DNA from: Anoxybacteroides voinovskiense
GTDB taxonomy: Bacteria > Bacillota > Bacilli > Bacillales > Anoxybacillaceae
NCBI RefSeq assembly: GCF_014196205.1
Contig: NZ_JACIDE010000001.1
Location: 186,001-250,000, forward strand
DNA length: 64,000 bases
Direction of reading: 5' to 3'
Below the pieces are notes generated by a model, which worked only from the letters and a program-made list of their open reading frames with translations, made no database searches and had not been told where the DNA came from. Every line of letters begins with the position of its first letter. Within the stretch, counting starts at the first letter, position 1. Below are positions 47,725 to 64,000 of the stretch, one piece after another. The translations under genes and the position numbers were made by a program.

Positions 47725-47736
47725 GTTTATCCCCCC

Positions 47737-49512: not shown

Positions 49513-49566
49513 GCTCTTCACCTCTTTGCTTTCGCATCAATCATATTTCTATTATTCCTATAAATT

Positions 49567-49589
49567 AAGTGTGGTTTATTACTACACTT
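49567..49589. promoter_or_regulatory. LysR-type site between cysJ and cysL
   Basis: AAGTGT (49567-49572) and ACACTT (49584-49589) form a perfect 6-bp inverted repeat with an 11-bp centre, the size of a LysR-type binding site, in the AT-rich region between the divergent cysJ and cysL starts. Confidence 0.55.
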
Positions 49590-49670
49590 TACTGTAAAAC
49601 TGAAAATTAGTAAAATAAATATAAATTATGAAAGCTATTAATATTTTTAATAATTAAAAGGAGAATGGGT

Positions 49671-50561
49671 GTGTACTACGAGGAATTAAAAACGTTCGTG
49701 ACGTTAGCGGAAGTGAAAAATTTTACGAAAACAGCGGAAATTCTTCATTTATCCCAACCTAGCGTCAGCTTGCATATTAAAAATTTAGAAAAAGAGTTTC
49801 AAACGAAGCTGTTCGTTCGCTCGCCAAAACGGCTACAAATGACACCGACTGGGGAAATGCTTTACGACCGCGCCAAGCAAATGATTGCCTTGTACGAGCA
49901 GACGAAACAAGATATTTTAGAGCACCACCATTCCGTCAAAGGGACGCTCAAAATCGGGGCTAGTTTTACGATTGGGGAATATATTTTGCCGCCGCTCTTA
50001 TTTGAGCTGCAAAACGACTACCCAGAGCTTGAACTAGAAGTCGTTATTGGCAATACGAAAGAAATCGTCGAGCTTGTCCGCTCGTTTCAAGCCGACATCG
50101 GCTTAATCGAAGGGCAGACGAATGAAAAAGAACTGTCCGTCCATGCGTTTATGCAAGACGAGCTCGTTATTGTCGCATCGAACGATCACGAACTCGTTCA
50201 TAAGGCGGAAGTGTCGATTGCCGATTTGCAAAATCAAGCGTGGGTGACGCGGGAAGTCGGATCTGGTACACGGGAATATTTTAACCATTTTATTCGCTCG
50301 AACGGGCTAAAAGTAAAATCGCTCATGATTATTAGCAGTAACCAAGGCATTAAAGAGGCGCTCATCGCTGGCAGTGCCCTGTCGCTTCTTTCGCGCAGCG
50401 TCGTTATGCGCGATATTGCTCACGGACATTTATCCCTTCTTCGGTTAAACTACCCGCCGTTTCACCGAACATTTTCATACATTTATTCTCCAATTATGGC
50501 GAACAAAAAAAACGTGCACGTTTTACTTCGGGCGTTAGAAAAAAAGCGAGACGAATCATAA
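49671..50561 (+). CDS. cysL: LysR family regulator CysL, activator of cysJI
   Basis: This 296-residue protein has the LysR helix-turn-helix (NFTKTAEILHLSQPSVSLHIKNLE) and a ligand domain like Bacillus subtilis CysL (YwfK), which activates the divergent cysJI operon. The ATG at 49665 is only one base from the AAGGAG Shine-Dalgarno, so GTG 49671 is the better start and fits the family N-terminus. Divergence from cysJ supports the assignment. Confidence 0.9.
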   Translation: MYYEELKTFVTLAEVKNFTKTAEILHLSQPSVSLHIKNLEKEFQTKLFVRSPKRLQMTPTGEMLYDRAKQMIALYEQTKQDILEHHHSVKGTLKIGASFTIGEYILPPLLFELQNDYPELELEVVIGNTKEIVELVRSFQADIGLIEGQTNEKELSVHAFMQDELVIVASNDHELVHKAEVSIADLQNQAWVTREVGSGTREYFNHFIRSNGLKVKSLMIISSNQGIKEALIAGSALSLLSRSVVMRDIAHGHLSLLRLNYPPFHRTFSYIYSPIMANKKNVHVLLRALEKKRDES

Positions 50562-50608
50562 GAAAAGCGCCCGCCTATCGGCAAAGATCGCAAAAGCCCC
50601 ACCGAGGA
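50560..50608. repeat. Dispersed intergenic repeat (copy 2, partial)
   Basis: This stretch starts AAGAAAAGCGCCCGCCTATC and continues with few differences from the first 50 bases of the copy at 16756, then diverges. It directly overlaps the cysL stop codon. The right half of the longer copy is absent. Confidence 0.6.
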
Positions 50609-50655
50609 AACTTTCTTGTCTTTGAACGAAAATTCTACAGAATTTACGTAATGAA

Positions 50656-50691
50656 AAAACACTTTTTCGGCAACTGCCAAAAAAGTGTTTT
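50656..50691. terminator. Terminator between cysL and the aldo/keto reductase gene
   Basis: A long stem AAAACACTTTTT-C-GGCA pairs with TGCC-A-AAAAAGTGTTTT around an AC loop. It can end both convergent transcripts. Confidence 0.85.
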
Positions 50692-50696
50692 CATCA

Positions 50697-51614
50697 TTAC
50701 GGCAACCGATGCCCTGCCGCGCGGTAAATGTCGTACCATTCTTTGCGGGAGAGCTGTACGTTGCTCGCTTGGCAAATGTCTTTTAAACGAGCGGCGTTTG
50801 TTGTGCCAACGATGACTTGCATGTTTGCTGGATGGCGCAAAATCCAAGCGACCGCTATCGCTGATTTACTTACTCCTTTTTCCTCCGCTAGCCGTCCAAG
50901 CACCTCATTAACTTCCGGAAATTTCTCGTTGTCAATGAACACTCCTTCAAAAAAGCCGTATTGGAACGGGGACCACGCTTGGATGGTGATGTTTTTTAGA
51001 CGACAATATTCTAAAATATGGCCATCGCGGTCAGCTGCCCCGTCAAATAACGTGTTTGCTTGAATACCGCTCGTCACTAAATTCGCGTGCATCATACTAA
51101 ACTGCATTTGGTTCACAATGATCGGCTGCTCGACATATGCTTGTAATAGTTCGATTTGCATGCTGTTAAAGTTGCTCACCCCGAAATGGCGAACTTTTCC
51201 GCTTGCATATAGCCGGTCAAACGCCTCTGCCACTTCTTCCGGTTCCATCAGCGTATCTGGTCGGTGAAGAAGCAAAATATCTAAATAGTCGGTTTGCAGC
51301 CGTTGTAAAATCCCATCTACCGAGGCTAAAATATGTTCCTGCGAAAGATCATAATAGCCGTCGCGAATCGAGCACTTGCTTTGAATGTGGATGCGGTCGC
51401 GCAAATGAGGGCGAGAAGCAAGCACTTCGCCAAACAGCTCTTCACAGCGCCCTTTCCCGTAAATATCGGCATGGTCAAACATCGTAATCCCTGCTTCGAG
51501 CGCTTCGTCTATATACCGTGACAGTTCGGAAACCGACATATCTGCCATTCTCCTGCACCCTAGCACGATTTCCGAAGCCATTAGACCAGATTTTCCAATA
51601 TTGCGTTGGTTCAT
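50697..51614 (-). CDS. Aldo/keto reductase (YdhF-like)
   Basis: This 305-residue (alpha/beta)8 oxidoreductase of the AKR superfamily most resembles the YdhF branch. Catalytic Asp and Tyr lie in TMFDHADIYGKG, the lysine in IQSKCSI and the His in LLLHRPD. It reduces aldehydes or ketones with NADPH; the substrate is unknown. It is a single gene, divergent from a two-component system across a region with a 10-bp inverted repeat. Confidence 0.9.
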   Translation of the reverse strand: MNQRNIGKSGLMASEIVLGCRRMADMSVSELSRYIDEALEAGITMFDHADIYGKGRCEELFGEVLASRPHLRDRIHIQSKCSIRDGYYDLSQEHILASVDGILQRLQTDYLDILLLHRPDTLMEPEEVAEAFDRLYASGKVRHFGVSNFNSMQIELLQAYVEQPIIVNQMQFSMMHANLVTSGIQANTLFDGAADRDGHILEYCRLKNITIQAWSPFQYGFFEGVFIDNEKFPEVNEVLGRLAEEKGVSKSAIAVAWILRHPANMQVIVGTTNAARLKDICQASNVQLSRKEWYDIYRAAGHRLP

Positions 51615-51649
51615 TTATCCAATCCTCCTCATGTCATATGTAACTTTTA

Positions 51650-51715
51650 TTCTACCATAACATATAGGTGCAATGCTCGTATTGACGCCCCTCCTTCCCT
51701 TTTAGTATGGTAGAA
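51650..51715. promoter_or_regulatory. Divergent promoter region with inverted repeat
   Basis: TTCTACCATA (51650-51659) and TATGGTAGAA (51706-51715) are a perfect 10-bp inverted repeat. On the plus strand TTGACG (51682-51687) and TATGGT (51706-51711), 18 bases apart, form a fair promoter for the kinase gene. The mirror half supplies a similar -10 for the reductase gene. Confidence 0.45.
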
Positions 51716-51747
51716 AATAGACCAATGAGAAAGTTGAGGGCATAGCG

Positions 51748-52845
51748 ATGAAACGATTTATTATTCGTCTGCTTGTATTCGCTGTTTTATGGCTTGGGTA
51801 TTTATATGAGCACTTTCAGCACGCCAGCAAGCTTCCAGCGATTTTATTCATAAGCGCCTGTGCCATTAGTGCTTATTTTTTTCTCCCAATTACTAAACGT
51901 CCACTTCTGCTATTCATTTTTATCGACTGTCTTCTTTTGCTGGAGGAATCTCTTCATCCGCTCGCGAACAATATGTACATCTTGCTAATGTTTCTTTATC
52001 TTTATGTGGAGGCAATTTTTCAGCTGAACGTTTCAGCGTTTCGTATATTCGCAGCCATCACTTTTTCCTGTTCAGCCGTTGTCACATTGCTCTGGCAGCC
52101 AAACGAAAGCGAATGGCTCATTGCATTTGCCATTTTTTCCGCCATTGCGATTGTTTTGAATGAATACGTAAAGGAACGTGAAGAACAAAAAGAAATGTAC
52201 GAGCAGCTATTAGGAGAGTATCGGCGCTTAAAGCGCTCTTACTACGAAACAGAGCGAGCAGCACGGCTCGAAGAACGGACGAGAATTGCCCGCGACATTC
52301 ATGATTCCGTCGGCCATAAATTAACGGCCTTGCTCATGCAGCTAGAAATGTTGTCTATTCGTGAACGGAAAGAAGAATACAAACAACTGCAAGCACTTGT
52401 GCGCGAAAGTTTAGAGGAAACACGACAAGCAGTCAAAGCGCTACAAACAGAAGAAAATGCTGGTATTTCCTCCGTTTTGCAATTAATTCGGAAATTAGAG
52501 TCAGAAAGTCATATTATGGTTCATTTTACTACAAAGCAAGGGGCGTTAACAGCGAAGCTAACGAATGAACAAAATATCGCTCTTTACCGCGTCATCCAAG
52601 AAGGGCTGACGAATGCGATGCGCCATGCTCAATCACGAGAAGTGTTTGTCACATTAGGAAAATCGGCCGTTGGCGATTTAGAGTTTTCCATCAAAAATCG
52701 AGTTGCCCACCCGAAGCTGTTTCAGCTTGGGTTTGGACTAACGAATATGCAGGAACGCATCAAGCAAATCGGGGGTACGGTGCATATTTTCCAAACCGAT
52801 AGTGAGTTTACCGTCCAAGGGACGATTCCAATCAAGGAGGGATAA
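51748..52845 (+). CDS. NarL/LiaS-type sensor histidine kinase
   Basis: The 365-residue kinase has four to five N-terminal membrane segments (residues 1-140), a short coiled coil, and a HisKA_3 dimerisation domain with the phospho-acceptor H185 in RIARDIHDSVGHKLT, followed by a HATPase domain (FGLTNMQERIKQIGG). There is almost no extracellular domain, as in intramembrane-sensing kinases linked to ABC exporters. It is followed 2 bp later by a response regulator gene. Confidence 0.9.
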   Translation: MKRFIIRLLVFAVLWLGYLYEHFQHASKLPAILFISACAISAYFFLPITKRPLLLFIFIDCLLLLEESLHPLANNMYILLMFLYLYVEAIFQLNVSAFRIFAAITFSCSAVVTLLWQPNESEWLIAFAIFSAIAIVLNEYVKEREEQKEMYEQLLGEYRRLKRSYYETERAARLEERTRIARDIHDSVGHKLTALLMQLEMLSIRERKEEYKQLQALVRESLEETRQAVKALQTEENAGISSVLQLIRKLESESHIMVHFTTKQGALTAKLTNEQNIALYRVIQEGLTNAMRHAQSREVFVTLGKSAVGDLEFSIKNRVAHPKLFQLGFGLTNMQERIKQIGGTVHIFQTDSEFTVQGTIPIKEG

Positions 52846-52847
52846 AT

Positions 52848-53480
52848 TTGATTCGTATTTTACTCGCAGAAGATCAAGCGCTTGTCAGACAAGGGGTAAA
52901 AATGATGATTGAGCAAGATGAACAGCTGAAAGTCATCGCAGAGGCAGCAAATGGACTCGAAGCTGTGCAACAAATAGAAACTCGCCTTGTCGATCTTGTG
53001 CTAATGGATATTCGCATGCCTGTCATGAACGGGCTAGAAGCAACGAAAATCATTAAAAAACGATGGCCACATATTAAAATTTTAATGTTAACAACGTTTA
53101 ACGATGATGAATATGCCGTTCAAGCACTAAAAGACGGAGCGAGTGGATTTTTGCTAAAAACGGCAGAACGCCAAAAACTCATCGATGCCATTTATAGCTG
53201 CATAAATGGCGGAATGACAATTCATGACGAAGTAGCGGCGAAAGTGGTGCCGCGCCTTTTAGAACGTACAAAACGCGAGCCGGTAACCGTTCCGTTAACT
53301 CCTCGTGAACTTGCCATTGCCCAATTAGTTGGGGAAGGAAAAACAAACAAAGAAATTGCCGAAACTCTTCACTTATCCGTCGGAACCGTTAAAAATCATA
53401 TTACACAAATTTTACAAAAATTAGAATTACGCGACCGGACACAGTTAGCCATTTACGCGATTAAACACGATCTTGTATAA
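52848..53480 (+). CDS. NarL/LuxR-type response regulator
   Basis: This 210-residue regulator has a receiver domain with phospho-acceptor D54 (VDLVLMDIRMPVMNG) and acidic E8-D9, and a LuxR-type C-terminal helix-turn-helix (LTPRELAIAQLVGEGKTNKEIAETLHLSVGTVKNHI). The start is TTG 52848, 7 bases after GGAGG, at the end of the kinase gene. It probably regulates the ABC exporter genes that follow; a matching palindrome lies in between. Confidence 0.92.
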   Translation: MIRILLAEDQALVRQGVKMMIEQDEQLKVIAEAANGLEAVQQIETRLVDLVLMDIRMPVMNGLEATKIIKKRWPHIKILMLTTFNDDEYAVQALKDGASGFLLKTAERQKLIDAIYSCINGGMTIHDEVAAKVVPRLLERTKREPVTVPLTPRELAIAQLVGEGKTNKEIAETLHLSVGTVKNHITQILQKLELRDRTQLAIYAIKHDLV

Positions 53481-53507
53481 CCGTCTTATTGGACGGTTTA
53501 TTTTTTT
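53479..53507 (+). terminator. Terminator between the response regulator and the ABC operon
   Basis: AACCGTC (53479-53485) pairs with GACGGTT (53492-53498), followed by TTATTTTTTT. It separates the two-component genes from the exporter, which therefore needs its own promoter. Confidence 0.8.
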
Positions 53508-53512
53508 AGAAA

Positions 53513-53526
53513 ATGACTAAAGTCAT
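53513..53526. promoter_or_regulatory. Palindrome upstream of the ABC exporter operon
   Basis: ATGACTAAAGTCAT (53513-53526) is a 14-bp palindrome (ATGACT-AA-AGTCAT-like) about 90 bases before the ATPase start. NarL-type regulators bind short dyads of this kind, so it is a candidate site for the response regulator just upstream. Confidence 0.5.
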
Positions 53527-53615
53527 AGCTCTGTTGGTAAAACAATGACGGAAGATAGTAAGCAGCGAATGAAAAATATCGTACGATACATATGAGAACG
53601 GAAGGAGGAGAAAAA

Positions 53616-54548
53616 ATGTTAGAAGCAGTAGAACTAACGAAACAATTTAAACAAATGAAAGCGGTCAATCGGGTCAATTTATATTTAGAACAAGGGGAAA
53701 TTGTTGGATTGCTTGGACCAAATGGAGCGGGCAAATCAACGACCATTTCGATGCTCTCGACGTTAATTCCCCCATCAAGCGGGGATGTGCGCTTTCATCA
53801 AAAAAGCATCTTGAAAAACCCAGCAATGCTTCGCAACGTGTTAGGAATCGTTCCACAAGAAATTGCGCTCTATTCTGATTTATCCGCAAAAGAAAACTTG
53901 TGGTTTTTCGGACGCATCCATCGGTTATCGGGGGTACAGCTGCAAAAAAAAGTCGAGGAAATATTGGAGCTCATCGGACTAACCGATCGACAAAACGATT
54001 TAGTGAAACACTTTTCTGGGGGAATGAAGCGGCGATTAAACATCGGAGCTGCCCTTTTACACGAACCGAAGCTATTAATTATGGATGAACCAACCGTCGG
54101 CATTGATCCACAATCCCGTAACTATATTTTAGAAACCGTGAAGCGGTTAAACGAAGAAAAACAGATGACTGTCCTTTACACAAGCCATTACATGGAAGAA
54201 GTCGAGTTTTTATGCAACCGCATTTACATTATGGATAAAGGCTGCATTATCGCATCAGGAACAACAGCCGAGATTAAAAACATTTTGTCCGCGGAGCATA
54301 CGGTCGAAATAAAAGTCGAAAAACTAAACGAATCGTTTTTGCATGCATTGCGTACACAGCCAGTCGTTCGTCATATCGCTATCCAAGACAGAGTCATTAC
54401 GATGCTGTCCCCAAAAGAAGTGAACGTCTTCCGCCTATTATTCCAGCTAGCGGAACAAACTGACACCGTGCTGACGTCCATCGAAATGAAAACGCCGACA
54501 CTAGAAGATGTATTTTTACATCTAACCGGTCGAGCATTACGTGATTAG
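53616..54548 (+). CDS. ABC transporter ATP-binding protein (DrrA-like)
   Basis: This 310-residue ATPase has Walker A (GPNGAGKST), signature HFSGGMKRRLNIG, and Walker B (LLIMDEPTVGIDP), with a C-terminal tail as in DrrA-type drug or antibiotic exporters. ATG 53616 is preferred over the in-frame ATG 53592 because AAGGAGGAG precedes it. It is followed by two permease genes, so the exporter is one ATPase with two different permeases. Confidence 0.92.
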   Translation: MLEAVELTKQFKQMKAVNRVNLYLEQGEIVGLLGPNGAGKSTTISMLSTLIPPSSGDVRFHQKSILKNPAMLRNVLGIVPQEIALYSDLSAKENLWFFGRIHRLSGVQLQKKVEEILELIGLTDRQNDLVKHFSGGMKRRLNIGAALLHEPKLLIMDEPTVGIDPQSRNYILETVKRLNEEKQMTVLYTSHYMEEVEFLCNRIYIMDKGCIIASGTTAEIKNILSAEHTVEIKVEKLNESFLHALRTQPVVRHIAIQDRVITMLSPKEVNVFRLLFQLAEQTDTVLTSIEMKTPTLEDVFLHLTGRALRD

Positions 54549-54558
54549 GGGGATTCGA

Positions 54559-55827
54559 ATGATTGGAGCGTTTGTCAAAAAACAACTGCTACTGCTGGTG
54601 CGAAACCGTCATGAAGTGCTTATTCTCCTCGGAATGCCGCTTGTATTAATTACGATTTTAGGGTTTGCGCTTGGAAATATCATGGATGGCGATCACGCTG
54701 CCATTCACGCGAAAATCGCGTTTATGAACGAAGGGGACGAACAAAAAGAGCTGCAAGCATTTACGCGTGAAATAGACGCGATGAACATTCCAACAGAAAA
54801 AAAACAAATGCTGATCGAAGCCGCTCGTTCGATCGCGCCGATTACCGTACTAAAACAAGACGTGTTTGGCGACAAATCAGTAAAAAAATATATTCGCATC
54901 ATTGATGTACCACCCGCTCAACTAGAGAAAGTCCGCCAAAAGGACAGCTACGCCGCGATCATTCGCGTGCCGAATGGATTTACGTACAAGATGCTACAAT
55001 ACATGCTTTTGCAAAAAAACGAACACCCTCGCTTATTTTTTTATACAAACGAGGAAAAAGCGTGGACAGCTGAAATGGTGGGGCAAATTCTTGCTGCGTT
55101 TCAACGACACTATTCGCTAGCTGCCGCTCTTGGCAAGGCAGGGATAGCCAATCGTTCCTCGGCGATCGTTGACGTTCATGTAAATGGCAAAATGGAAACG
55201 GTGACGAAAAAACAGCCAATTCGTGCGGTCACCTATTATACGGTCGGAATGAGTGTCATGTTTGCTCTATATATCGCTTCAAACGTCGGAAGTTATGCGT
55301 TTGAAGAAAAGCGCTCCCACGTATTCGACCGGATGTTGTTAGCCAATGTGTCAAGATGGTCGTATATGGCAGGCATTTTCCTTTCAGCGACGCTGCTTGC
55401 ATGTTTGCAACTCTTTATTTTGTACGGCTTAACGTCGATCATATATGACATTACATGGGCAGATATCCCTGCATTTTTCGTCGTGACCGTATCGCTTGCG
55501 CTAACGGTCGGTGGGTTAGCGGTATTATTGACCGCGTTAAATTTCCGCGTCAATTCTGAGCAAGTATCGCGTTTTTTCCAAACCGTTCTCGTGACGATAT
55601 TTTCGCTTGTTGGTGGCAGCTATTTTCCTGCTGGTCAATTGTCCGATTTCATTAGCACTATCGGAACACTAACGCCGAACGGGGCAAGCATGAACGCCTA
55701 TTTAAAACTGCTACAAGGGTACCATTTTAGCGACATCGCCCACTCGGTCATATATTTATCCCTTTTTAGCATCACGACATTGTTGTTATCGATATGGGCT
55801 TTTCCGAAAAGGGGGAACGAATCGTGA
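54559..55827 (+). CDS. ABC-2 type transporter permease 1
   Basis: This 422-residue ABC-2 permease has one N-terminal membrane segment (RNRHEVLILLGMPLVLITILGFALG), a large extracytoplasmic domain (about residues 45-210) and five segments near the C-terminus. It follows the ATPase gene with a 10-bp gap and AGGGGG before ATG 54559; the frame is open up to 54541 without a ribosome site. It probably forms a heterodimer with the next permease. Confidence 0.88.
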   Translation: MIGAFVKKQLLLLVRNRHEVLILLGMPLVLITILGFALGNIMDGDHAAIHAKIAFMNEGDEQKELQAFTREIDAMNIPTEKKQMLIEAARSIAPITVLKQDVFGDKSVKKYIRIIDVPPAQLEKVRQKDSYAAIIRVPNGFTYKMLQYMLLQKNEHPRLFFYTNEEKAWTAEMVGQILAAFQRHYSLAAALGKAGIANRSSAIVDVHVNGKMETVTKKQPIRAVTYYTVGMSVMFALYIASNVGSYAFEEKRSHVFDRMLLANVSRWSYMAGIFLSATLLACLQLFILYGLTSIIYDITWADIPAFFVVTVSLALTVGGLAVLLTALNFRVNSEQVSRFFQTVLVTIFSLVGGSYFPAGQLSDFISTIGTLTPNGASMNAYLKLLQGYHFSDIAHSVIYLSLFSITTLLLSIWAFPKRGNES

Positions 55828-56924
55828 TTAGCATTTTATCGGCGAAATTTCGGCTGTTTTTACGAAACCCTTGGATGGTCATTATTATGTCGATCGTTTG
55901 CATTGTGATGGCTTCCGTTATTGGTGCTTCTAGTGAAAAGAGAATAAAAGTACCGGTTGTTAGCACGCTTGCTTCGCACGAAACAAACGAACTCCTTCAG
56001 TCGCTGAACAAGTCGCCATCGTTCCGCTTCGAACTAATGGAAAAAAGCAAAATGCGCACGCTCGTGGAAGAAGGAAAAGTAGAAGCAGGGGTAGAGCTTT
56101 CCAACCATGATTTTACGTTAATCATCACCTCGCAAACAGGAAATACGTTTTTTCTACGGCAGTATGTCCAAAAAGTATATAGCGAAAAAGAGCAAGCAAA
56201 CGCCATCGCTACACAGGCACACATTCCAGTCGAAAAAGCTATCAATATCGTAAACGAAGCAAAAGAGCATCCTGCGTTCACGGTGAAAACGATGAATTTC
56301 CGCGGAAAGCATGCGGTGACGATCGATTCACAACTGCAGCCGATTTTCGGCTTTTCCCTCTTTTTCGTTATTTATACCGTCGCGTTTCAAGTGCTGCAAC
56401 TATTGAAAGAAAAACGCGAAGGGGTGTGGAACCGAATGATTCTTTCCCGTCTCAAAAAATGGGAAATATACACAGGGAATCTGCTGTATAGTTTTATGAT
56501 TGGCTACCTTCAAATCGTACTCATTTTCTCCGTGTTTCGTTTTGGGTTAGGCATTCGTTTCCACGGGCAATTTGCCGAACTGCTCGTCTTGTTAGTACCG
56601 TATGTGTTTTCGCTCGTCGCCTTTTCGATGTTGCTTGTCGGCCTCGTTAAAAATGAGCAACAATTTCAAGCGCTCATTTCTCTCCTTGCCGTCAGCATGG
56701 CGATGATTGGCGGGGCATATTGGCCGTTAGAAATCGTTTCTTCTAACGTTTTATTAGCACTATCAAAAATCGTTCCATTGACGTACGGCATGGAGCTACT
56801 CAAAGGGGCTGCTGTCTATGGTCGCTCCATTACAGAATTGCTGTACCCGATGAGCATCTTATTTTTCATGGGCGTCGTATTCATGGGGATTGGCATTAAC
56901 CTTGTGGAACGAAAAAACGGCTAA
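55824..56924 (+). CDS. ABC-2 type transporter permease 2
   Basis: This 366-residue ABC-2 permease has the same layout as permease 1: one N-terminal segment, an extracytoplasmic domain and five C-terminal segments. GTG 55824 overlaps the previous stop (GTGA) and lies 8 bases after GGGGG, so it is favoured over ATG 55794. It ends the operon. The substrate is unknown; antimicrobial peptides or drugs are usual for kinase-linked exporters of this type. Confidence 0.87.
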   Translation: MISILSAKFRLFLRNPWMVIIMSIVCIVMASVIGASSEKRIKVPVVSTLASHETNELLQSLNKSPSFRFELMEKSKMRTLVEEGKVEAGVELSNHDFTLIITSQTGNTFFLRQYVQKVYSEKEQANAIATQAHIPVEKAINIVNEAKEHPAFTVKTMNFRGKHAVTIDSQLQPIFGFSLFFVIYTVAFQVLQLLKEKREGVWNRMILSRLKKWEIYTGNLLYSFMIGYLQIVLIFSVFRFGLGIRFHGQFAELLVLLVPYVFSLVAFSMLLVGLVKNEQQFQALISLLAVSMAMIGGAYWPLEIVSSNVLLALSKIVPLTYGMELLKGAAVYGRSITELLYPMSILFFMGVVFMGIGINLVERKNG

Positions 56925-56933
56925 AACATTGGC

Positions 56934-56961
56934 AATCTCCCTCGCCAATAAGCGAGGGAGA
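56934..56961. terminator. Stem-loop between convergent ABC permease and YhfC genes
   Basis: ATCTCCCTCGC (56934-56944) and GCGAGGGAGAT (56951-56961) form a perfect 11-bp stem with a 6-nt loop. The T-run is short (ATATTTAG), but the position favours a shared terminator. Confidence 0.75.
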
Positions 56962-57007
56962 TATTTAGTCCAAACTAACGAAAATCTTTGTGCCATCGAG
57001 CGAACAT

Positions 57008-57787
57008 TCAGGAAAAGCAATGGAACTTTTCGCTCATGCGTCGAATGAAAACAAGCGAAGCGATTGCGATGAAAGCGAGGAGCGTTTCGACCGTCCAAAC
57101 GTTGGAAATGATTTTCACTTGGTATAACGCAGGGACAACATCAATCAACGCATGAATGAAAATCGCATACACTACATAACGAAATTGCCCCTTCCGAACC
57201 CCGTATAAAACAAGAAGAGAAAGGGCCATATGGATCGCGATCGCAAACATTCGCTCGATACTACCTAATACATACACCCAATCTGGCTGATTTAACATGG
57301 TTTTGAGCATCTCCACTTGTGTAGCGGGAAGAGAGGAAGCAACTTGCTCAAACTGACCTGTTTGAACGAGATGAGACATCACCATCATATTTACGGCACT
57401 AAGCCCCCCAATGAGCACAGCTTCCATTCCTCCATGCCCTATCCCAAACGATAATCCGTCTCCGAATGTCCGATGGTTTTTTAACATGAAACGAAATCCG
57501 ATATACCTACCAATTTCCTCAAATACTCCAGCTGCTAACGCCCCATAAGCAACAAACGCCCAAACGTTATCTGTGCCTTTTAATGATGTTCCACTTGGAT
57601 CCATGACAAGTATATGAACGATTTTCTCGAGCACTTGTGAAAATAACACAAAAATAAGCATACCAACACCGAACGCTTTCCAAGAAAGCCAGCCTTTTTT
57701 CCTTCCATATATGATAAGCGCGAAAGGAACAAACAAGGAAAGAAACAACTGAATAAACATCCAAAACAACACGATCCCCCCGTTCAT
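57008..57787 (-). CDS. YhfC family intramembrane protein (putative glutamic protease)
   Basis: This 259-residue protein with about seven membrane segments matches the YhfC family, related to CAAX-type glutamic intramembrane proteases. Candidate catalytic residues are the EE in GVFEEIGRYIGFRF and the His in FGIGHGGMEAV. Its ATG overlaps the sdpI stop by 4 bases, so it is coupled to the sdpR-sdpI pair. This linkage suggests a role in the same immunity or stress response, which is inference. Confidence 0.85.
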   Translation of the reverse strand: MNGGIVLFWMFIQLFLSLFVPFALIIYGRKKGWLSWKAFGVGMLIFVLFSQVLEKIVHILVMDPSGTSLKGTDNVWAFVAYGALAAGVFEEIGRYIGFRFMLKNHRTFGDGLSFGIGHGGMEAVLIGGLSAVNMMVMSHLVQTGQFEQVASSLPATQVEMLKTMLNQPDWVYVLGSIERMFAIAIHMALSLLVLYGVRKGQFRYVVYAIFIHALIDVVPALYQVKIISNVWTVETLLAFIAIASLVFIRRMSEKFHCFS

Positions 57788-58410
57788 TTACGCGAAAAGA
57801 TATACGACTGGATAAACAGATACATCGTGCCACCAAACACGATGATTAAGAGAAGAACAAAGCGCCATACACTTTCTGTAAATACCGTCAGCATAACCAA
57901 TACCCCCATAATAACAAACACTTTCCCTCCGACACGATGCGTTTTTTGCCAAACCTCCTCATTTTCCAATGTCCAAGGAGTGCGAATGCCGAAAAAGTAA
58001 TTCGGTTTAATTTTCGGCATATAATTGCCAAGGACAATAAACAATCCCCCAACTCCAATTGGCACCACGACATCGACTTGCACAGAAAACCCGATATTGT
58101 ATGCGAGTGTTACTACATGTAGACTAAACAAAAAGAGGACAAATACATGCAAAAAAATGCGATATACTTTTTCAAATTTCTCGTAGTTTTCTTTTCGTGG
58201 ATCAACTTTCGGTAAAAAGATGACGAGAGCGACAATTCCTGTTAAAAAGATCGGAAATAATAACGCTCCCCACCATTTGTTCATAAAACCATCTGCTTCC
58301 CCTGCAGCGTTCCAATGAACGGTCACTTCGTTTGGTAAATATGGAATCGCAACTAAACTCAATACGTAGCTACATGCAATGAGAATAATAATAAACCAAT
58401 ACTTTTTCAT
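57784..58410 (-). CDS. sdpI: SdpI family immunity-type membrane protein
   Basis: This 208-residue membrane protein with about six segments matches SdpI of Bacillus subtilis, which gives immunity to the SdpC toxin and holds SdpR at the membrane. It has the DUF1648 start (PNEVTVHWNAAGEADGF) and the SdpI motif EEVWQKTHRVGGKVF. No sdpC toxin gene is in the window, so the homologue may protect against toxins from other cells or sense envelope stress. It overlaps both sdpR and the YhfC-type gene. Confidence 0.88.
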   Translation of the reverse strand: MKKYWFIIILIACSYVLSLVAIPYLPNEVTVHWNAAGEADGFMNKWWGALLFPIFLTGIVALVIFLPKVDPRKENYEKFEKVYRIFLHVFVLFLFSLHVVTLAYNIGFSVQVDVVVPIGVGGLFIVLGNYMPKIKPNYFFGIRTPWTLENEEVWQKTHRVGGKVFVIMGVLVMLTVFTESVWRFVLLLIIVFGGTMYLFIQSYIFSRK

Positions 58411-58685
58411 GATTTATCCCCTTCTTTTTGTAATATATCGTAAAACCAACTCATTAAATCTTGGAAAACAGTTGTGTTTAATGAGTAATAAATGTGCTGG
58501 CCAACGCGGCGGTCTTCGACTAAATCGGCTTGTTTTAATATTTTCAAATGATGGGAAACACTTGGCTTTTGCATATCAAAGTGTTCCGCAATTTCTCCTG
58601 CCGTCAAGTCTCCTTTTTTTAGTAGCGACAAAATTTTCCGGCGGTTCGGATCGGCAATCGCTTTAAACGCCTCGTTAAACGACAT
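58407..58685 (-). CDS. sdpR: ArsR family regulator SdpR
   Basis: This 92-residue winged-helix protein resembles Bacillus subtilis SdpR: KAIADPNRRKILSLLKKGDLTAGEIAEHF and then KPSVSHHLKILKQADLV. ATG 58685 is preferred to GTG 58697 because GGTGAAAAAG precedes it. The stop overlaps sdpI. SdpR represses its own operon, and two matching palindromes lie directly upstream. Confidence 0.9.
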   Translation of the reverse strand: MSFNEAFKAIADPNRRKILSLLKKGDLTAGEIAEHFDMQKPSVSHHLKILKQADLVEDRRVGQHIYYSLNTTVFQDLMSWFYDILQKEGDKS

Positions 58686-58707
58686 CTTTTTCACCAACTT
58701 TCTTTTA

Positions 58708-58772
58708 GATATTTAGACAAATTTCTAAATATCGAACAAAAGAATAGATATTTAGATGAATTTCTAATTACA
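58708..58772. promoter_or_regulatory. Two operator-like palindromes upstream of sdpR
   Basis: GATATTTAGA-N6-TCTAAATATC (58708-58733) is perfect with 10-bp arms. A second site, GATATTTAGA-N6-TCTAATTACA (58747-58772), keeps the same left arm and the core TTAGA-N6-TCTAA. Centres are 39 bp apart. They are probable SdpR sites. Confidence 0.75.
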
Positions 58773-58886
58773 TCATATTCCATATCGTGTCCGTCTGTCA
58801 ATCGTTTAATAAAACACCCATGAGGAAGTTTTTCTCGCCACCCAAGAATGAAAATAACCGTTCATGAACCCTTTATTTTCACAGAA

Positions 58887-58914
58887 AAAAGAGCACCCGA
58901 TTAGGTGCCCCTTT
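58887..58914 (-). terminator. Terminator after the secreted coiled-coil gene
   Basis: A stem (AAAAGAGCACC / GGTGCCCCTTT) with a 6-nt loop at the end of the gene, followed on the minus strand by TTTTTTC. Confidence 0.8.
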
Positions 58915-59654
58915 TATAAAAGATTAAGTAACGCTTTTTTGTTTTGTTGAACTTGCTCGTCCAACACTTTCACTTTTTCTTTCAACTGTTGAATGCCTTG
59001 GTCATTAGAACCGACTTTCTTTTCCAATGCACGGATTTCATTTTTCACCGCTTTCAGTTGATTAGAAAGCGAGAGCAGTTTGCCAATAAGTTCGTCAATT
59101 TGCTCTTGTTTTGCTTCTTCATTGTCGCCTTCGTCCTCTTTCTCCACCGCTGGTTTGGTATCGGTTACCGTTGGTGAAGTTGTCGTTGTTGTATCACTCG
59201 TAATTGTTGTTGTATCGCTTGTTGTCGACGTTTCGCCAGCAGTATTCGTCGTTACATTTGCTTGATCGCTCGGTGTTTGCGTCTGGTCTGATGTTGGTGT
59301 TGTGGAATCCGTCGGCGTTGTGTCCGTTGTTGGTGCTGGTTGGGTGTTCGACTCGCTAAGCGCTTGAATTTCAGCGGTTACGCTGTTCATTCGCTCACTG
59401 ATTTTCCCGACTTTTTTGTTCAATTCTGCTAATTTTTTTGCAAGCATTTGTTGCTCTTTTTTCTGCTTTGCTAATTCTCGCTTCTCTTTTTCTACGTTTC
59501 TTTTCTCTTTTTTCTCCGCTAGCTTTTTCACTACAAACTCGCTTTTTTCTACATGCTTCGTTCTCGCAACGTGTTTTCCATCATGCTTTGCCGCAAACGC
59601 AGGCGATGCGACAAGCATCGAAGCTAGTAAAATTGGCAATCCTTTTTTGAACAT
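58914..59654 (-). CDS. Secreted coiled-coil protein with Thr/Ser-rich linker
   Basis: The 246-residue protein has a typical Sec signal peptide (MFKKGLPILLASMLVASPAFA, cleavage after AFA), a basic coiled-coil region (about 25-100, rich in Lys/Glu), a long Thr/Ser/Asp-rich linker (about 105-165) that looks like a wall-spanning or exposed segment, and a second coiled coil (about 180-246). There is no anchor motif. Two coiled coils joined by a linker suggest a fibre-like or matrix protein, but no family is recognised. A class I c-di-GMP riboswitch in its leader implies control by the motile-sessile switch. Confidence 0.8.
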   Translation of the reverse strand: MFKKGLPILLASMLVASPAFAAKHDGKHVARTKHVEKSEFVVKKLAEKKEKRNVEKEKRELAKQKKEQQMLAKKLAELNKKVGKISERMNSVTAEIQALSESNTQPAPTTDTTPTDSTTPTSDQTQTPSDQANVTTNTAGETSTTSDTTTITSDTTTTTSPTVTDTKPAVEKEDEGDNEEAKQEQIDELIGKLLSLSNQLKAVKNEIRALEKKVGSNDQGIQQLKEKVKVLDEQVQQNKKALLNLL

Positions 59655-59692
59655 TACCGTTTCCTCCTTTAGATGTAATGATTCATTTGTTT

Positions 59693-59772
59693 GGTAATGG
59701 CAGCTGGCTGGCGTAGGTTTCCCCTTAGCCCCTCTAGCTTTGCGACGCTAAGTTTCCTTAGCTGTGCCCTTA
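59693..59772 (-). ncRNA. Class I cyclic-di-GMP riboswitch (GEMM)
   Basis: The minus-strand leader folds as expected for GEMM-I: a closing stem GGCA/TGCC (59766-59770 region and 59697-59702), a first hairpin GCTAAG-GAAA-CTTAGC with a GNRA tetraloop, the conserved CGCAAAGC stretch, GGGGCTAAGG, and the tetraloop-receptor part CCAGCCAGCTGCC. The first base of the usual ACGCAAAGC is T here. Just after it, CATTACC can pair with GGTAATG, which contains the start codon of the downstream gene, so translation control is possible. No strong terminator is seen between the aptamer and the gene. Confidence 0.82.
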
Positions 59773-59778
59773 TTAAAA

Positions 59779-59806
59779 AGTATACCATGCGTTTCTTCTC
59801 ATGCAA
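59779..59806 (-). promoter_or_regulatory. Promoter of the riboswitch-controlled gene
   Basis: On the minus strand TATACT (59779-59784) preceded by TGG is an extended -10, with TTGCAT as a -35 16 bases upstream. Transcription would start close to the first base of the riboswitch. Confidence 0.65.
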
Positions 59807-59918
59807 TCGAGGCAAAATTCCTATTTTTCTAGCAAAAATATACAAACACACAAGGACAGAAGGAACGAACGTAGAAGTTTATATAACTATCAAACTATTT
59901 GTGCAAAGGAGGAAAAAG

Positions 59919-60632
59919 ATGCTCGCAAACTGGCTAAAAGAATCAACGACTACGGTCGTATTTACCGGCGCAGGAATGTCGACAGAAAGCGGGTTGCCCG
60001 ATTTTCGTTCGGCAAAAACGGGGCTTTGGCATACGAAAAATCCACAGCAATTAGCGAGTACGTATGCGCTAAAACATAACCGCGAGGAATTTGTCGCGTT
60101 TTACCAATATCGCATTCGCACGCTTCTTGAATGCCAGCCACATATTGGGCATACGATTTTGGCAGATTGGCAAAAACGAGGGATTATTCATCAAATCGTC
60201 ACGCAAAATGTCGACGGCTTTCACCAACAAGCTGGCAGCACAAATGTCGTCGAATTGCACGGGACGTTGCGAACCGTCTATTGCTTGCGCTGTAAGCAAA
60301 CGTACGATGTGAAACGATATGTAGACGAACAGTTTGAGTGCACATGCGGCGGCTTTTTGCGCCCTTCCGTCGTCTTATTTGGCGAATCGCTGCCATCTTT
60401 TGCAATTGACCAAGCGTGGACAGCAGCACAACAAGCCGATTTATGGATCGTGCTCGGCTCTTCTTTGCAAGTATCACCAGCTAACGAGCTTCCTGTCATC
60501 GCTAAACGAAGCGGGGCAAAATTAGTTATCGTGAATATGGAACCGACCGAACTAGACGATTGGGCAGATCTCACTATCCATAACCGAAAAATCGGGGATG
60601 TTTTACAAGAAATCGATCACGCACTACGTTAG
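59919..60632 (+). CDS. NAD-dependent protein deacylase, Sir2 family
   Basis: This 237-residue sirtuin removes acyl groups from lysine with NAD. It has the NAD motif GAGMSTESGLPDFRS, the catalytic segment QNVDGFHQQAGS with its following HG, and four zinc-cysteines (CLRCKQ and CTCGG). ATG 59919 has AAGGAGG 7 bases upstream; the frame extends to 59691 through the riboswitch, which is not coding. It is the homologue of Bacillus SrtN or E. coli CobB. It is divergent from the riboswitch gene. Confidence 0.93.
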   Translation: MLANWLKESTTTVVFTGAGMSTESGLPDFRSAKTGLWHTKNPQQLASTYALKHNREEFVAFYQYRIRTLLECQPHIGHTILADWQKRGIIHQIVTQNVDGFHQQAGSTNVVELHGTLRTVYCLRCKQTYDVKRYVDEQFECTCGGFLRPSVVLFGESLPSFAIDQAWTAAQQADLWIVLGSSLQVSPANELPVIAKRSGAKLVIVNMEPTELDDWADLTIHNRKIGDVLQEIDHALR

Positions 60633-60640
60633 AATAGCAA

Positions 60641-60663
60641 AAAGAGAGCCAGTGGCTCTCTTT
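60641..60663. terminator. Bidirectional terminator between sirtuin and ahpF
   Basis: AAAGAGAGCC (60641-60650) and GGCTCTCTTT (60654-60663) form a 10-bp stem with a 3-nt loop, with an A-run before it; similar in sequence to the terminator at 26824-26850. Confidence 0.88.
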
Positions 60664-62191
60664 AATTTCGGATAAGATAGTCAAACGCCCCTAATGCGGC
60701 GGTAGCGCCTGAACCCATCGAAATAATGATTTGTTTGTATGCGCTGTCCGTGCAGTCCCCTGCCGCAAAGACGCCTGGGACGTTTGTCGCACCTCGTTTG
60801 TCAACGATAATTTCGCCGAACCGATTGCGTTCCACGACTCCATCTAGCCATTCGGTATTTGGTACAAGGCCGATTTGCACAAATACGCCTTGTAATTCAA
60901 TGTGATGCTCTTTTCCGGTTGCTCGGTCGATATACGTGATGCCATTGACTTTGTCTGTCCCAGCAATTTCTTTCGTTTGCGCATTTTTGATGACCGTTAC
61001 GTTCGGCAAGCTGTACAACCGGTCTTGCAACACCGCGTCCGCTTTTAATTCTGGCGCAAATTCAAGAACCGTCACATGTTTAGCGATTCCGGCAAGGTCA
61101 ATCGCTGCTTCTACTCCAGAGTTGCCACCGCCAATGACCGCGACGTGTTTTCCTTCAAACAACGGACCGTCGCAATGCGGGCAGTAAGCCACCCCTTTGT
61201 TTTTAAACTCCGACTCGCCCGGAACGCCAAGATTGCGCCAACGCGCACCTGTGGCGATAATGACCGTTTTACTTTTTAACACAGCGCCGTTTTCTAGCTC
61301 CACTTCAATCAAATCTTTCTTTTCTAGCCGTTGAACGCGCTGTAAGTTCATAATGTCCACATTGTAATGTTTGACATGCTCTTCAAGGCTTGCGGCAAGC
61401 TTCGGACCTTCGGTATATTTTACGCTAATAAAGTTTTCAATGCCTAACGTATCTAAAATTTGCCCGCCAAAGCGTTCCGCAACAATGCCTGTCCGAATGC
61501 CTTTCCGCGCTGCATAAATCGCTGCCGTTGCCCCTGCAGGTCCGCCGCCGACAACAAGCACGTCAAACGGATCTTTGTCGGCAAAGGCGGAAGCGTCTGG
61601 TATGCTTCCTAATTTCGCAAGAATTTCCTCAAGCGACATGCGGCCACTAGCGAACGGCTCACCATTTAAAAAGACGGTCGGCACCGCCATGACGCCTTTT
61701 TGTTCCACTTCGTCTTTAAACGCTGCCCCGTCAATCATCGTATGCGACACGTTCGGATGTAAGACGCTCATCACGTTTAATGCTTGGACGACATCTGGGC
61801 AGTTATGGCACGTCAAACTGACGTACGTTTCAAAACGGTACGTGCCTTTTAAGTGTTTAATTTGCTCAATAACTGCTGGATCGACTTTTGGCGGTCTTCC
61901 GCTTACTTGAAGCAACGCTAAGACAAGCGACGTAAATTCATGCCCTAAAGGCACTCCCGCAAAGACAACGCCTGTTTCTTCCCCAACGCGGTTGACGCTA
62001 AAGCTTGGCGTTCTTTCAAGCGTCGTTTTCTCTACGTTGATTTTCGATGACATTGCCGCTAGTTCATCGACTAACGAAAGCATGTCGCGGGAAACTTTGT
62101 CGTCTCCCGCGCTCACTTTTATCACAATGTCATTTTCCATCAGTTGTAGATATTGGGCGAGCTGCGCTTTAATTTCCGCATCCAATATCAT
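60662..62191 (-). CDS. ahpF: Alkyl hydroperoxide reductase subunit F
   Basis: This 509-residue flavoprotein reduces AhpC with NADH. It has an N-terminal double-thioredoxin domain with CHNCPDVV, a FAD domain ([19 protein letters not shown]) and a thioredoxin reductase-like active pair CPHCDGPLF. It lies 13 bp downstream of ahpC. The length and layout match Bacillus AhpF. Confidence 0.96.
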
Positions 62192-62204
62192 GACATAAGC
62201 CTCC

Positions 62205-62768
62205 TTAAATTTTCCCTACAAGGTCAAGGCTTGGCTTAAGCGTTTCTGCTCCTTCTTGCCATTTTGCTGGGCAAACTTCGCCTGGGTTGTTGCGCACGTA
62301 TTGTGCTGCTTTAATTTTGTTGACGATTGTGCTTGCATCGCGGCCGATACCGTCTGCGTTAATTTCCACCGCTTGCACGACACCGTCTGGATCGATGATG
62401 AACGTACCGCGTTGCGCAAGACCTGTTTCTTCATCTAATACTTCAAACATGCGCGATAGTTTTTGCGAAGGGTCGCCAATCATTACGTATTCGATTTTGC
62501 TGATCGCTGGCGATGTATCGTGCCATGCTTTATGGGTGAAATGTGTATCTGTCGAAACAGAGTATACTTCCACCCCAAGGTCTTTTAATGTTGCATATTG
62601 GTTTTGCAAGTCTTCTAACTCTGTTGGGCACACGAATGTAAAGTCCGCTGGATAGAAGCAAACAACGCTCCATTTTCCTTTGAAGTTTTCGTCTGTTACC
62701 TCGATGAAATCCCCGTTGTGAAACGCCATCGCTTTAAATGGTTGTACTTGTTTTCCGATTAAAGACAT
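62205..62768 (-). CDS. ahpC: Alkyl hydroperoxide reductase subunit C (peroxiredoxin)
   Basis: This 187-residue typical 2-Cys peroxiredoxin reduces organic hydroperoxides and hydrogen peroxide. The peroxidatic cysteine is C47 in FTFVCPTE and the resolving cysteine is C166 in GEVCPAKW. It is the first gene of ahpC-ahpF, and a PerR-like box lies upstream. Confidence 0.97.
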
Positions 62769-62804
62769 TGCTCATCTACCTCCTAAGAATATTGGTTCGT
62801 TTAA

Positions 62805-62819
62805 TTATAATAATTTTAA
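62805..62819. promoter_or_regulatory. PerR-like box upstream of ahpC
   Basis: TTATAATAATTTTAA (62805-62819) matches the Bacillus Per-box consensus TTATAATNATTATAA at all but one position. PerR represses ahpCF in Bacillus until peroxide oxidises it. Confidence 0.75.
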
Positions 62820-62900
62820 TTCGATATTTATTATCATATAGTAGTATCTATTTGTCAAGACATACGCCCTAGTTTCTTTTGATTTTTGTGAACAGATCCT

Positions 62901-64000
62901 CTACTGCATCCACGTATACACTGCCTCCGCTTCGTTTTCATCCACATCGGTGACTTTGAAAAACATTCTAGGCATCACAGCGACGGAAAGTGTGCGAAGC
63001 CGCTTCCGTTTTTGAAACCACGTGGCGGAAAGTGCCATTGATTGGATGCGGTGCTTTCGCGTATACATTGTTTCGATACGAAACATACCGTTTCGCAAAG
63101 CGAGCTGCTCTCCTGAAATCGCCCACCCTGCCATTTGATAGCTTTTATAGCCAAGATAACTAGCAACAACCAATAAAAGTAGCAATCCGATCCCCCACGG
63201 TCGGAAAAAATAAGCCACTGCACCTAGCGGAATGGCTAATACATACACAGGCCGAAGCATATAGCGAACACGTGCCCGGTGAGGCAGCGGTTGAAATTGC
63301 TGGGGAATGCAGTACTCCGGAAAGCAAGCGGCAATAACCGAAACCGCTCGTTCCTTTTTCACAAACGGACAAAGAACGATACTCCCATTCTCTCCACCAT
63401 CTAACGAACCACCTGCATGAATGATATGCACAGAAACACAGCCAAGCAAACGTTGAATGACGTTTTCTTTCATTATTATCCCCTGCACTCGCTTTTTTGA
63501 TACCGTAAGCAGTTGTTTTTCAAATAGTCCTCTGGAAATAATAATCGTCTCTTTTTGGTTTCGAACCGTAAAAAACGCATAGCGCAACAGATGGCGTCCA
63601 ACGGAAAGAGCGTAGGCGACGAGGAATAAAACAACAAGCGCCAGCGCACCGTCCAACGTATTACGAATTACCCCTTGCATATCGCGATATAACACATCGT
63701 ACGAGATAACATCGTCTAGTTGAGACAAAAAGGCGGAAATAGCCGCTAGTGCACCAAACACCCCTCCGCTTGTAGCCGATAATAAAAATACGTCGCGAAA
63801 ACGAAGAGAGAAAGCGATATCATCAGGATGTGTAGAGCGGTAAGCGAGCGGAAGCGCTTCAGCCGAATCGCCCTTTTCTTTCGCTCTTCGAATGTGCTGG
63901 GCGATTTGCTCTGCCTCTTCTTTCGTCACTGCCGTCAAAACCGCTTCTGCTTTTCCTAATTCATTGCCCGCTGTTTCGATACGTACTTGGACGACTCCGG
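62901..64000 (-). CDS. YdbT-like PH-domain membrane protein, C-terminal part (5' end outside window)
   Basis: The frame is open to the window edge. A TTG at 63938 could be misread as a start, but upstream codons (encoding VQVRIETAGNELGKAEAVL) continue the family pattern, so the gene is 5'-truncated by the window. The visible 366 residues contain part of a first bacterial PH (bPH2) domain, a pair of membrane segments (about 60-120 in the visible part), a second bPH2 domain (SRGLFEKQLLTVSKKRVQGI), another pair of segments and a final bPH2 domain (GMFRIETMYTRKHRIQSM). This matches YdbT of Bacillus, of unknown function, normally beside YdbS. Confidence 0.85.
   Translation of the reverse strand, partial: GVVQVRIETAGNELGKAEAVLTAVTKEEAEQIAQHIRRAKEKGDSAEALPLAYRSTHPDDIAFSLRFRDVFLLSATSGGVFGALAAISAFLSQLDDVISYDVLYRDMQGVIRNTLDGALALVVLFLVAYALSVGRHLLRYAFFTVRNQKETIIISRGLFEKQLLTVSKKRVQGIIMKENVIQRLLGCVSVHIIHAGGSLDGGENGSIVLCPFVKKERAVSVIAACFPEYCIPQQFQPLPHRARVRYMLRPVYVLAIPLGAVAYFFRPWGIGLLLLLVVASYLGYKSYQMAGWAISGEQLALRNGMFRIETMYTRKHRIQSMALSATWFQKRKRLRTLSVAVMPRMFFKVTDVDENEAEAVYTWMQ

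Follow-up and report, generated by a model that had tools for sequence, protein, structure and literature searches.

The class I c-di-GMP riboswitches (GEMM-I, RF01051) provide the closest described parallels to the locus analysed here. Vc2 of Vibrio cholerae is a translational OFF switch and, as described in PMC9262584, needs the closing helix P1 for binding and switching; loss of P1 abolishes binding. The same source describes Cd1 of Clostridioides difficile, a class I aptamer that works without P1 and acts on transcription, and the pilM switch, where P1 is formed only with ligand. Two class I elements from the Bacillus group are likened to the present one by description: Bc1 of Bacillus thuringiensis, with a long platform that has two terminators (PMC11218506), and a switch in B. 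thuringiensis upstream of cbpA, which encodes a collagen-binding surface protein (PMC7423583). The c-di-GMP riboswitches of Bacillus methanolicus are described as preceding two genes of unknown function, sinI and a c-di-GMP turnover operon (PMC4342826), and Anoxybacillus flavithermus is described as lacking tasA and as having 21 c-di-GMP turnover proteins and 19 riboswitches (PMC2614493). In open-licence PMC literature, at the level of titles and the beginnings of abstracts, no description was found of the start-codon layout, the aptamer variant or the protein family presented below.

The element is found in a 64-kb stretch of Anoxybacteroides voinovskiense DNA (64,000 nucleotides, here termed the window). 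Its minus strand from 59830 to 58885 contains a compact one-gene unit: a −10 box, an aptamer, a Shine-Dalgarno sequence, the gene and a probable terminator (Table 1). By its aptamer it is a c-di-GMP-I riboswitch, but a variant one, with an expression platform and target proteins peculiar to it. Judged from the sequence, there is a good probability that a c-di-GMP class I riboswitch here controls translation of a secreted helical protein that is probably surface- or matrix-associated.

Table 1. Features of the switch unit, in window coordinates
Feature	Positions	Strand	Basis
A/T-rich dyad-like block AGAAAAATAGGAATTTTG	59813..59830	-	by eye in 14 upstream regions
Extended −10 element TGGTATACT	59779..59787	-	sequence
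c-di-GMP-I (GEMM-I) aptamer, C at model position 15 (GGCACA, not GGCAAA)	59696..59778	-	RF01051
Anti-start sequence CATTACC, from last conserved aptamer C	59693..59699	-	pairs with 59658-59652
Shine-Dalgarno sequence AAAGGAGG, inside the start-codon hairpin loop	59663..59670	-	sequence
GGTAATG, start codon and four preceding bases, partner of the anti-start	59652..59658	-	sequence, pairing
Gene for 246-aa protein	58914..59654	-	ORF
Probable intrinsic terminator 3′ of the gene, GGGGCACCTAATCGGGTGCTCTTTTTT	58885..58911	-	sequence

The first-pass annotation of this DNA had proposed a GEMM-I aptamer, to be checked with a covariance model. The RF01051 match is full length (69.2 bits, E 1.7e-11, gathering cut-off 35) and is the sole Rfam match in the window to reach its cut-off. 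As was also proposed, the aptamer leads directly to the gene and is situated just 5′ of the reading frame. With other GEMM-I aptamers it shares the GAAA tetraloop, G11 and a CC near the 3′ end; it differs in the C at position 15, in having no covarying P1 and in a start-codon helix that touches the aptamer.

Comparisons were made over 39 leaders, 21 collected earlier and 18 from the listed matches of R1, a covariance model that spans the aptamer and the start-codon helix, made from 19 leaders and run on 397 genomes of the order; the 39 are not all independent, many being close relatives. Among the 19 aligned leaders, both-sided changes occur at eight of 26 modelled pairs, all eight within the aptamer, and the tetraloop of the first hairpin (G23 A24 A25 A26) is invariant in 19/19. 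G11 and C87 of Cd1 were mapped by us to RF01051 model positions 11 and 83. The ligand-contact G11 is present in the window and in 38 of the 39 leaders, C83 is kept in 38 (L089 has T), and C replaces A at position 15 in 38. It counts against the proposed control that ligand binding could be weak or altered, given the C15 variant and the lack of P1. The exception at position 11, L114 (genome G147), has A in place of G. A G-to-A change at the ligand-contact position is linked to cGAMP sensing in GEMM-Ib. A G20A model appears in PMC6274999.

The aptamer was also said to have its own extended −10 promoter, and this element can be read directly upstream. A consensus scan needing both hexamers gives no promoter in 58850-59900 (shuffles 1.2), and thus there is no good −35. 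In the 39 leaders the mean −10 score is 7.7, versus 6.3 in shuffled sequence, and TG is at the extended position in 17. The distance from the end of the best −10 match to the ligand-contact G has a median of 9 bases (range 0-20), which leaves little RNA for the 5′ strand of a P1. The predicted transcript start in the window is probably about 7 bases 3′ of the −10 box, a few bases before the ligand-contact G. About 28 bases 5′ of the −10 box is the A/T-rich block (59830-59813, AGAAAAATAGNNATTTTG), recognisable by eye in close homologues, which may be an activator site or UP element.

A helix of the Vc2 type, closing the 5′ and 3′ flanks, was not found. The flank duplex averages −1.30 for native and −1.28 for swapped flanks in the 39 leaders; there is no covariation signal, and a P1 closing helix was rejected because native and swapped flanks are alike. 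It should be pointed out that an A9-U86 pair could form in 38 of the 39 leaders and an A8-U87 pair in 32, which counts against this rejection; a two-pair A-U P1 is possible.

In all 39 leaders the partner of the start codon directly adjoins the aptamer. The helix starts at the last conserved aptamer base in 39/39 and takes in the complete start codon in 38/39, and pairing to the ligand-contact C at position 83 occurs in 0/39. The duplex, calculated for nine bases from C84 against nine bases ending in ATG, has a mean of −8.0 kcal/mol (weakest −5.3), as compared with −0.9 in 16 other GEMM-I leaders, namely those with a nearby ORF. In two of these 16, L037 and L069, a separate helix is formed by CGTTCAC/GTGAATG (−7.7); as its letters differ, the layout may have more than one origin. 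L037 (G006) and L069 (G001), from two genomes of one genus, represent a GGCAAA-type switch whose target is a secreted protein rich in repeats. ATG is followed by T in 21 of the 39 leaders and by A in 18; signal peptides commonly have Lys, Phe or Leu in second position, and therefore this base is weak evidence.

All seven helix pairs are kept in the 19 aligned leaders and, since every pair is present in every sequence, the helix shows no covariation there. Such invariance could reflect ancestry, and fourfold-degenerate sites were therefore used as a yardstick. In 14 close family homologues, 11 of 11 helix bases (seven of the anti-start and four before ATG) are invariant, versus none of 16 fourfold-degenerate sites taken at invariant residues. 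One leader base outside the helix (C84+8) is also invariant, and the Shine-Dalgarno bases are nearly so.

Changes in the helix are seen in 14 variant leaders, where own partners average −7.0 and partners of a different start context −5.6. Seven of them (L114, L118, L122, L124, L127, L133 and L139) have GGGAATG at the start codon and an anti-start with CCC in six and GCCT in L114. In all seven the leader's own anti-start gives a stronger duplex (−6.7 to −8.0) than does the consensus anti-start (−4.2 to −5.1). However, the anti-starts of five fit the consensus start context equally or better, and the co-change in these is therefore one-sided; L122 and L127 are specific in both directions. G.U-compensated forms are found in L115, L117, L119, L120 and L148; the last is a fortieth leader, from outside the order (family f54), with CATTACC/GGTGATG. 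Two further observations count against the pairing. Three leaders with GGTATG (L123, L126 and L128) reach no more than −5.3 to −5.4, and over the 39 leaders native pairing (−8.0) is little better than swapped pairing (−7.5), since the helix is identical in most of them.

As R1 contains the helix, it favours leaders having one, and an aptamer-only model (R2) was therefore built from the same C15 leaders and searched in the same 397 genomes. All 58 listed hits at E 1e-14 or better were examined. The helix is present with 28 of 28 C15 aptamers and with one of 30 others (raw counts, kin included). A script scored 27 of the 28 at −5 or below; L181 (G096) was counted by its GGTAATG start. The 30 others consist of 23 with A15, one with T15 (L215) and six read by eye, all GGCAAA without ATTACC and counted as others without start scoring; a nearby start is present in 16 of the 24 parsed non-C15 hits. 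The single non-C15 aptamer with the helix, L200, is before a Cu_amine_oxidN1 protein. Thus the presence of the helix is not an artefact of the search model.

The earlier proposal that CATTACC pairs with GGTAATG is borne out, beyond chance, by conservation and co-change. So is the suggestion of control of translation rather than termination, since the start-codon helix is conserved and the scan shows no terminator-like site between the aptamer and the start codon; an intrinsic terminator as expression platform was rejected for the latter reason. Translational control by start-codon pairing is well supported at the level of sequence. This is a likeness to Vc2, also a class I aptamer acting on translation, but Vc2 depends on P1. 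It is a difference from Cd1, a transcriptional switch that the present element resembles in being class I without P1 (PMC9262584). With regard to the probable terminator after the gene, its hairpin at 58893-58908 was listed once, on the plus strand; there was 1 site versus 1.5 in shuffles, and therefore scan support for this hairpin alone is not beyond chance. By eye, several homologues have a similar hairpin and T stretch after the gene.

Folding without ligand, the aptamer unconstrained, gives a start-codon helix probability of 0.13 at 37 °C, which counts against the helix; it is 0.25 at 50 °C and about 0.33 at 60 °C. The best fold at 37 °C pairs GGUAAU with AUUGCC of codons 6-7, and the first two AUG bases are paired at 0.96 and 0.94; between 37 and 60 °C they are paired at 0.87-0.96. 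The AUUGCC at 59640-59635 is a second possible partner of GGUAAU, and similar letters are found by eye in several close homologues but not in all.

The mechanism proposed is as follows. The transcript would start a few bases before the ligand-contact G, so that hardly any 5′ strand would be left for P1. The start codon, along with the four bases that precede it, would be paired to the 3′ edge of the aptamer, and the ribosome-binding site would lie in the loop. c-di-GMP would bind the aptamer and change how firmly the start codon is held. The start-codon helix may stack under the ligand pocket in place of P1, in which case c-di-GMP would strengthen the block.

That the conservation of CATTACC/GGTAATG is mere shared ancestry of leader and start region is very improbable. 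Many leaders are close relatives, the helix is invariant and non-covarying in the 19 leaders, and C84+8 and the Shine-Dalgarno bases are conserved with it; but the fourfold-degenerate sites of the close homologues have not stayed invariant, distant leaders have changed on both sides, and another GEMM-I target (L037, L069) has its own version of the helix. A different reading accepts the hairpin and makes it a constitutive brake or an RNA thermometer, the aptamer having little regulatory output. Many hosts in this GTDB family are thermophiles. The hairpin overlaps the aptamer no further than C84, and Bc1 of B. thuringiensis is described as binding c-di-GMP with downstream expression unchanged by it (PMC11218506). 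A brake or thermometer is nonetheless improbable: the helix starts at the last conserved aptamer base in every leader, C15 aptamers and helix go together (28/28), and genome G036, where the aptamer was lost, is by eye also without CATTACC upstream.

If c-di-GMP does act on the start codon, the direction of control has to be considered. OFF control, with c-di-GMP strengthening the start-codon block, has about an even chance of being correct. The lean to OFF comes from the way in which helix and aptamer abut without overlap, no leader pairing to the ligand-contact C. In addition, from the behaviour of Vc2, Cd1 and pilM, a start helix in the place of P1 could be ligand-stabilised (PMC9262584). 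ON control has an appreciable chance, short of even; here the bound ligand would hold the 3′ edge of the aptamer (C84 and AUU with AA at 8-9) and the start codon would be freed. This makes use of the possible pairs of A9 and A8 with U86 and U87 (38 and 32 of 39 leaders), although adenines at 8-9 belong to the general GEMM-I consensus and the flanks are without covariation (−1.30 and −1.28). C84 may be claimed by the bound aptamer, since the base that follows the ligand-contact C in Cd1 lowers the KD from 1.9 to 0.25 uM (PMC9262584), but C84 is the only strong base contested and the six other helix pairs need not open. Vc1, before the adhesin gene gbpA, is described as regulating positively (PMC4744006), and ON fits known adhesin-switch behaviour better than does OFF.

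RF01051 matches are found in at least 28 of 41 genomes of the same GTDB family, in a search with filters that lose weak matches. In these 41 genomes all 17 switches of one subtype directly precede such protein genes, 16 before the short form (one frameshifted, in G017) and one before the long form (G010). The first-pass annotation called for a survey of homologues for this linkage and took homologues lacking the riboswitch as evidence against it. The linkage holds at 17 of 20 homologous loci in the family and fails at three: G036 and the long forms of G007 and G015. At the G036 locus (L011) there is, by eye, another upstream leader, without aptamer or CATTACC, yet GGTAATG is kept. An intact switch remains before the frameshifted gene of G017 (L015).

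A protein search found matches in 19 of 61 genomes, all in the same family (G005 by a coil-only match); in four further genomes two matched, one by fragments only. A single-sequence scan gave one named relative, Anoxybacillus mongoliensis. Counting against the main reading, no protein match was found in 20 of the 41 family genomes; one of these (G010) has the long form. The G010 long form came to light by its switch and not by protein search, and thus other long forms may be missed. The lack of a match in these 20 genomes and the pseudogene in G017 indicate that the gene is dispensable. The coil-only weak matches L023 (G005), L031 (G006) and L032 (G026) were set aside, as were L092 and L093, weak matches without a switch. 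L027 (G022) and L083 and L084 (G064) are C-terminal gene fragments, two of them with other sequence in front; these are apparently remnants of duplication or recombination.

In the order, R1 has matches at E 0.001 in at least 254 of 397 genomes, most of which probably carry ordinary GEMM-I. Among the best R1 matches listed, 36 further places were inspected; 18 have the layout and 18 do not. The layout is found in 11 GTDB families (f1, f2, f10, f25, f26, f29, f36, f38, f40, f46 and f47). A doubtful genome, G096 (f12, 6% contamination), has a near relative that is a possible contaminant; its leader, L086, is among the 39.

The protein encoded in the window is 246 aa in length and consists of a putative signal peptide, a Lys/Glu-rich helix (27-102), a Thr/Ser/Pro linker and C-terminal helices (173-245) that carry the motif GKLxxxxNxLxA. 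It is apparently secreted, the signal peptide MFKKGLPILLASMLVASPAFA having been read by eye. The initial description was of two coiled coils joined by a Thr/Ser-rich linker. An AlphaFold2 model made with 15 homologues (mean pLDDT 68.9, pTM 0.47) agrees as to helix 27-102 and the low-confidence Thr/Ser/Pro linker; the second coil is better called two helices with a short turn, as the model has helices at 173-214 and 219-245. The pLDDT is mostly 80-96 in the helices, lower at the start of the first helix and under 50 in the linker. No Pfam or NCBIfam model reaches its cut-off with this protein, and a PDB profile search gives only short designed coiled coils; assignment to a known protein family was rejected on these grounds. 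In the members tested, the shared helical part also reaches no Pfam or NCBIfam cut-off.

The GKLxxxxNxLxA-type motif is present in 34 of the 39 linked proteins, in a form relaxed after misses were seen; a stricter first version found 25. Six columns (G, K, N, L, A, L) are invariant in a 14-member alignment of distant members. The five proteins without the motif are the G017 pseudogene and the Cu_amine_oxidN1-type proteins of L121, L123, L126 and L128. This domain was Pfam-tested in L121 and L128, which L123 and L126 resemble, and the same switch layout is upstream of all four. A profile of 15 close homologues, searched against these 39 only, finds 26 at E under 0.001, is weak in L115, L117 and L119 and gives nothing in 10. 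Six of the 10 have the motif (L111, L112, L118, L120, L122 and L133) and the other four are the Cu_amine_oxidN1-type proteins. L118 and L122 are 48 and 50% identical to the profile-matching L114. The putative homology of L111, L112, L115 and L120 is judged by the motif, the architecture and, in L111, where this was tested, Big_5.

That this is a surface or matrix protein, as was suggested from the usual targets of c-di-GMP riboswitches, finds indirect support in its relatives and none in the window itself. Long forms end in Big_5 (L021, L022, L078, L110, L111, L118 and L122), and the relative at L156:6198-7790 has three SLH stretches in addition. Of 22 loci (21 outside the family, and G010), seven have SLH-protein neighbours, five have Cu_amine_oxidN1-type (CuAO-N) proteins nearby, and three (L157, L167 and L171) adjoin relatives of sipW-tasA-sinR; the queries for this neighbour search were drawn from four of the 22 loci. 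tapA was recognised at L157 and L167. At L157 TapA and SipW pass NCBIfam cut-offs, and the TasA-like gene passes Pfam M73 but not the NCBIfam TasA model. From genome size it may be estimated that well under 1% of stretches of this kind would have a tasA operon. By contrast, no such surface-gene neighbours are found among 16 other ORFs in 47000-64000 of the window. Pfam detects no SLH, Peptidase_M73/TasA or Ig-like domain in the window protein, and its lack of an anchoring domain counts against surface attachment. A surface or matrix role for the window protein itself may be suggested.

In structure comparisons, a long-form model has the S-layer proteins SbsC (E 5e-5) and Sap (from 3e-4) among its best Foldseek matches; these are surface proteins with Ig-like domains. 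However, the TM-scores with SbsC are only 0.1-0.2. The best 50 rows of a second aligner mostly cover the Ig-like domain, and SbsC and Sap are not among them; the absence of SbsC there carries no weight. Profile searches of the PDB with long forms give weak, coil-like matches.

The A. voinovskiense genome has 12 GGDEF matches and no PF12389 (TasA-type) match at E 0.001. A joint reading may be offered, tentatively and with the odds against it, in which the start codon completes a P1-less aptamer and the C15 subclass is dedicated to a new c-di-GMP-controlled family associated with matrix or S-layer. Ligand binding and blocking of the start codon would then be one event, and the proteins may serve as a matrix component in thermophiles without TasA. 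If the main reading is right, a short RNA layout found across many families of Bacilli couples a second messenger directly to the start codons of surface-protein genes. A translational class I switch that by nature has no P1 would then be available along with its natural variants, and there would be a candidate role for the C15 aptamer variant. This suggests a little-studied route to cell-surface control. Two questions follow: by what means a class I aptamer can switch when it has no P1, and what the matrix is built from in thermophilic Bacilli that lack TasA.

Several minor observations concern neighbouring and related switches. In G045, a similar-looking 470-aa secreted gene (L164, 4416-5825) is found by eye in tandem 5′ of the switch-controlled gene. 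The A. voinovskiense genome has four GEMM-I switches. Of the three outside the window, one is before the gene for an EAL protein and another before that for a methyl-accepting chemotaxis protein. The third, the strongest GEMM-I of the genome (84.5 bits; L001, 1501-2280, C6 of G000), precedes a DUF192 gene; this is followed by a Flp-like pilin, which at 27.4 bits falls short of the Pfam cut-off of 32.2, and by further small genes that appear Tad-like by eye. L004 and similar GEMM-I leaders, before chemoreceptor and EAL genes, have CCCTTCTT just 3′ of the aptamer and AAGAAGG downstream, as seen by eye; the CCCTTCTT platform is perhaps part of an antiterminator.
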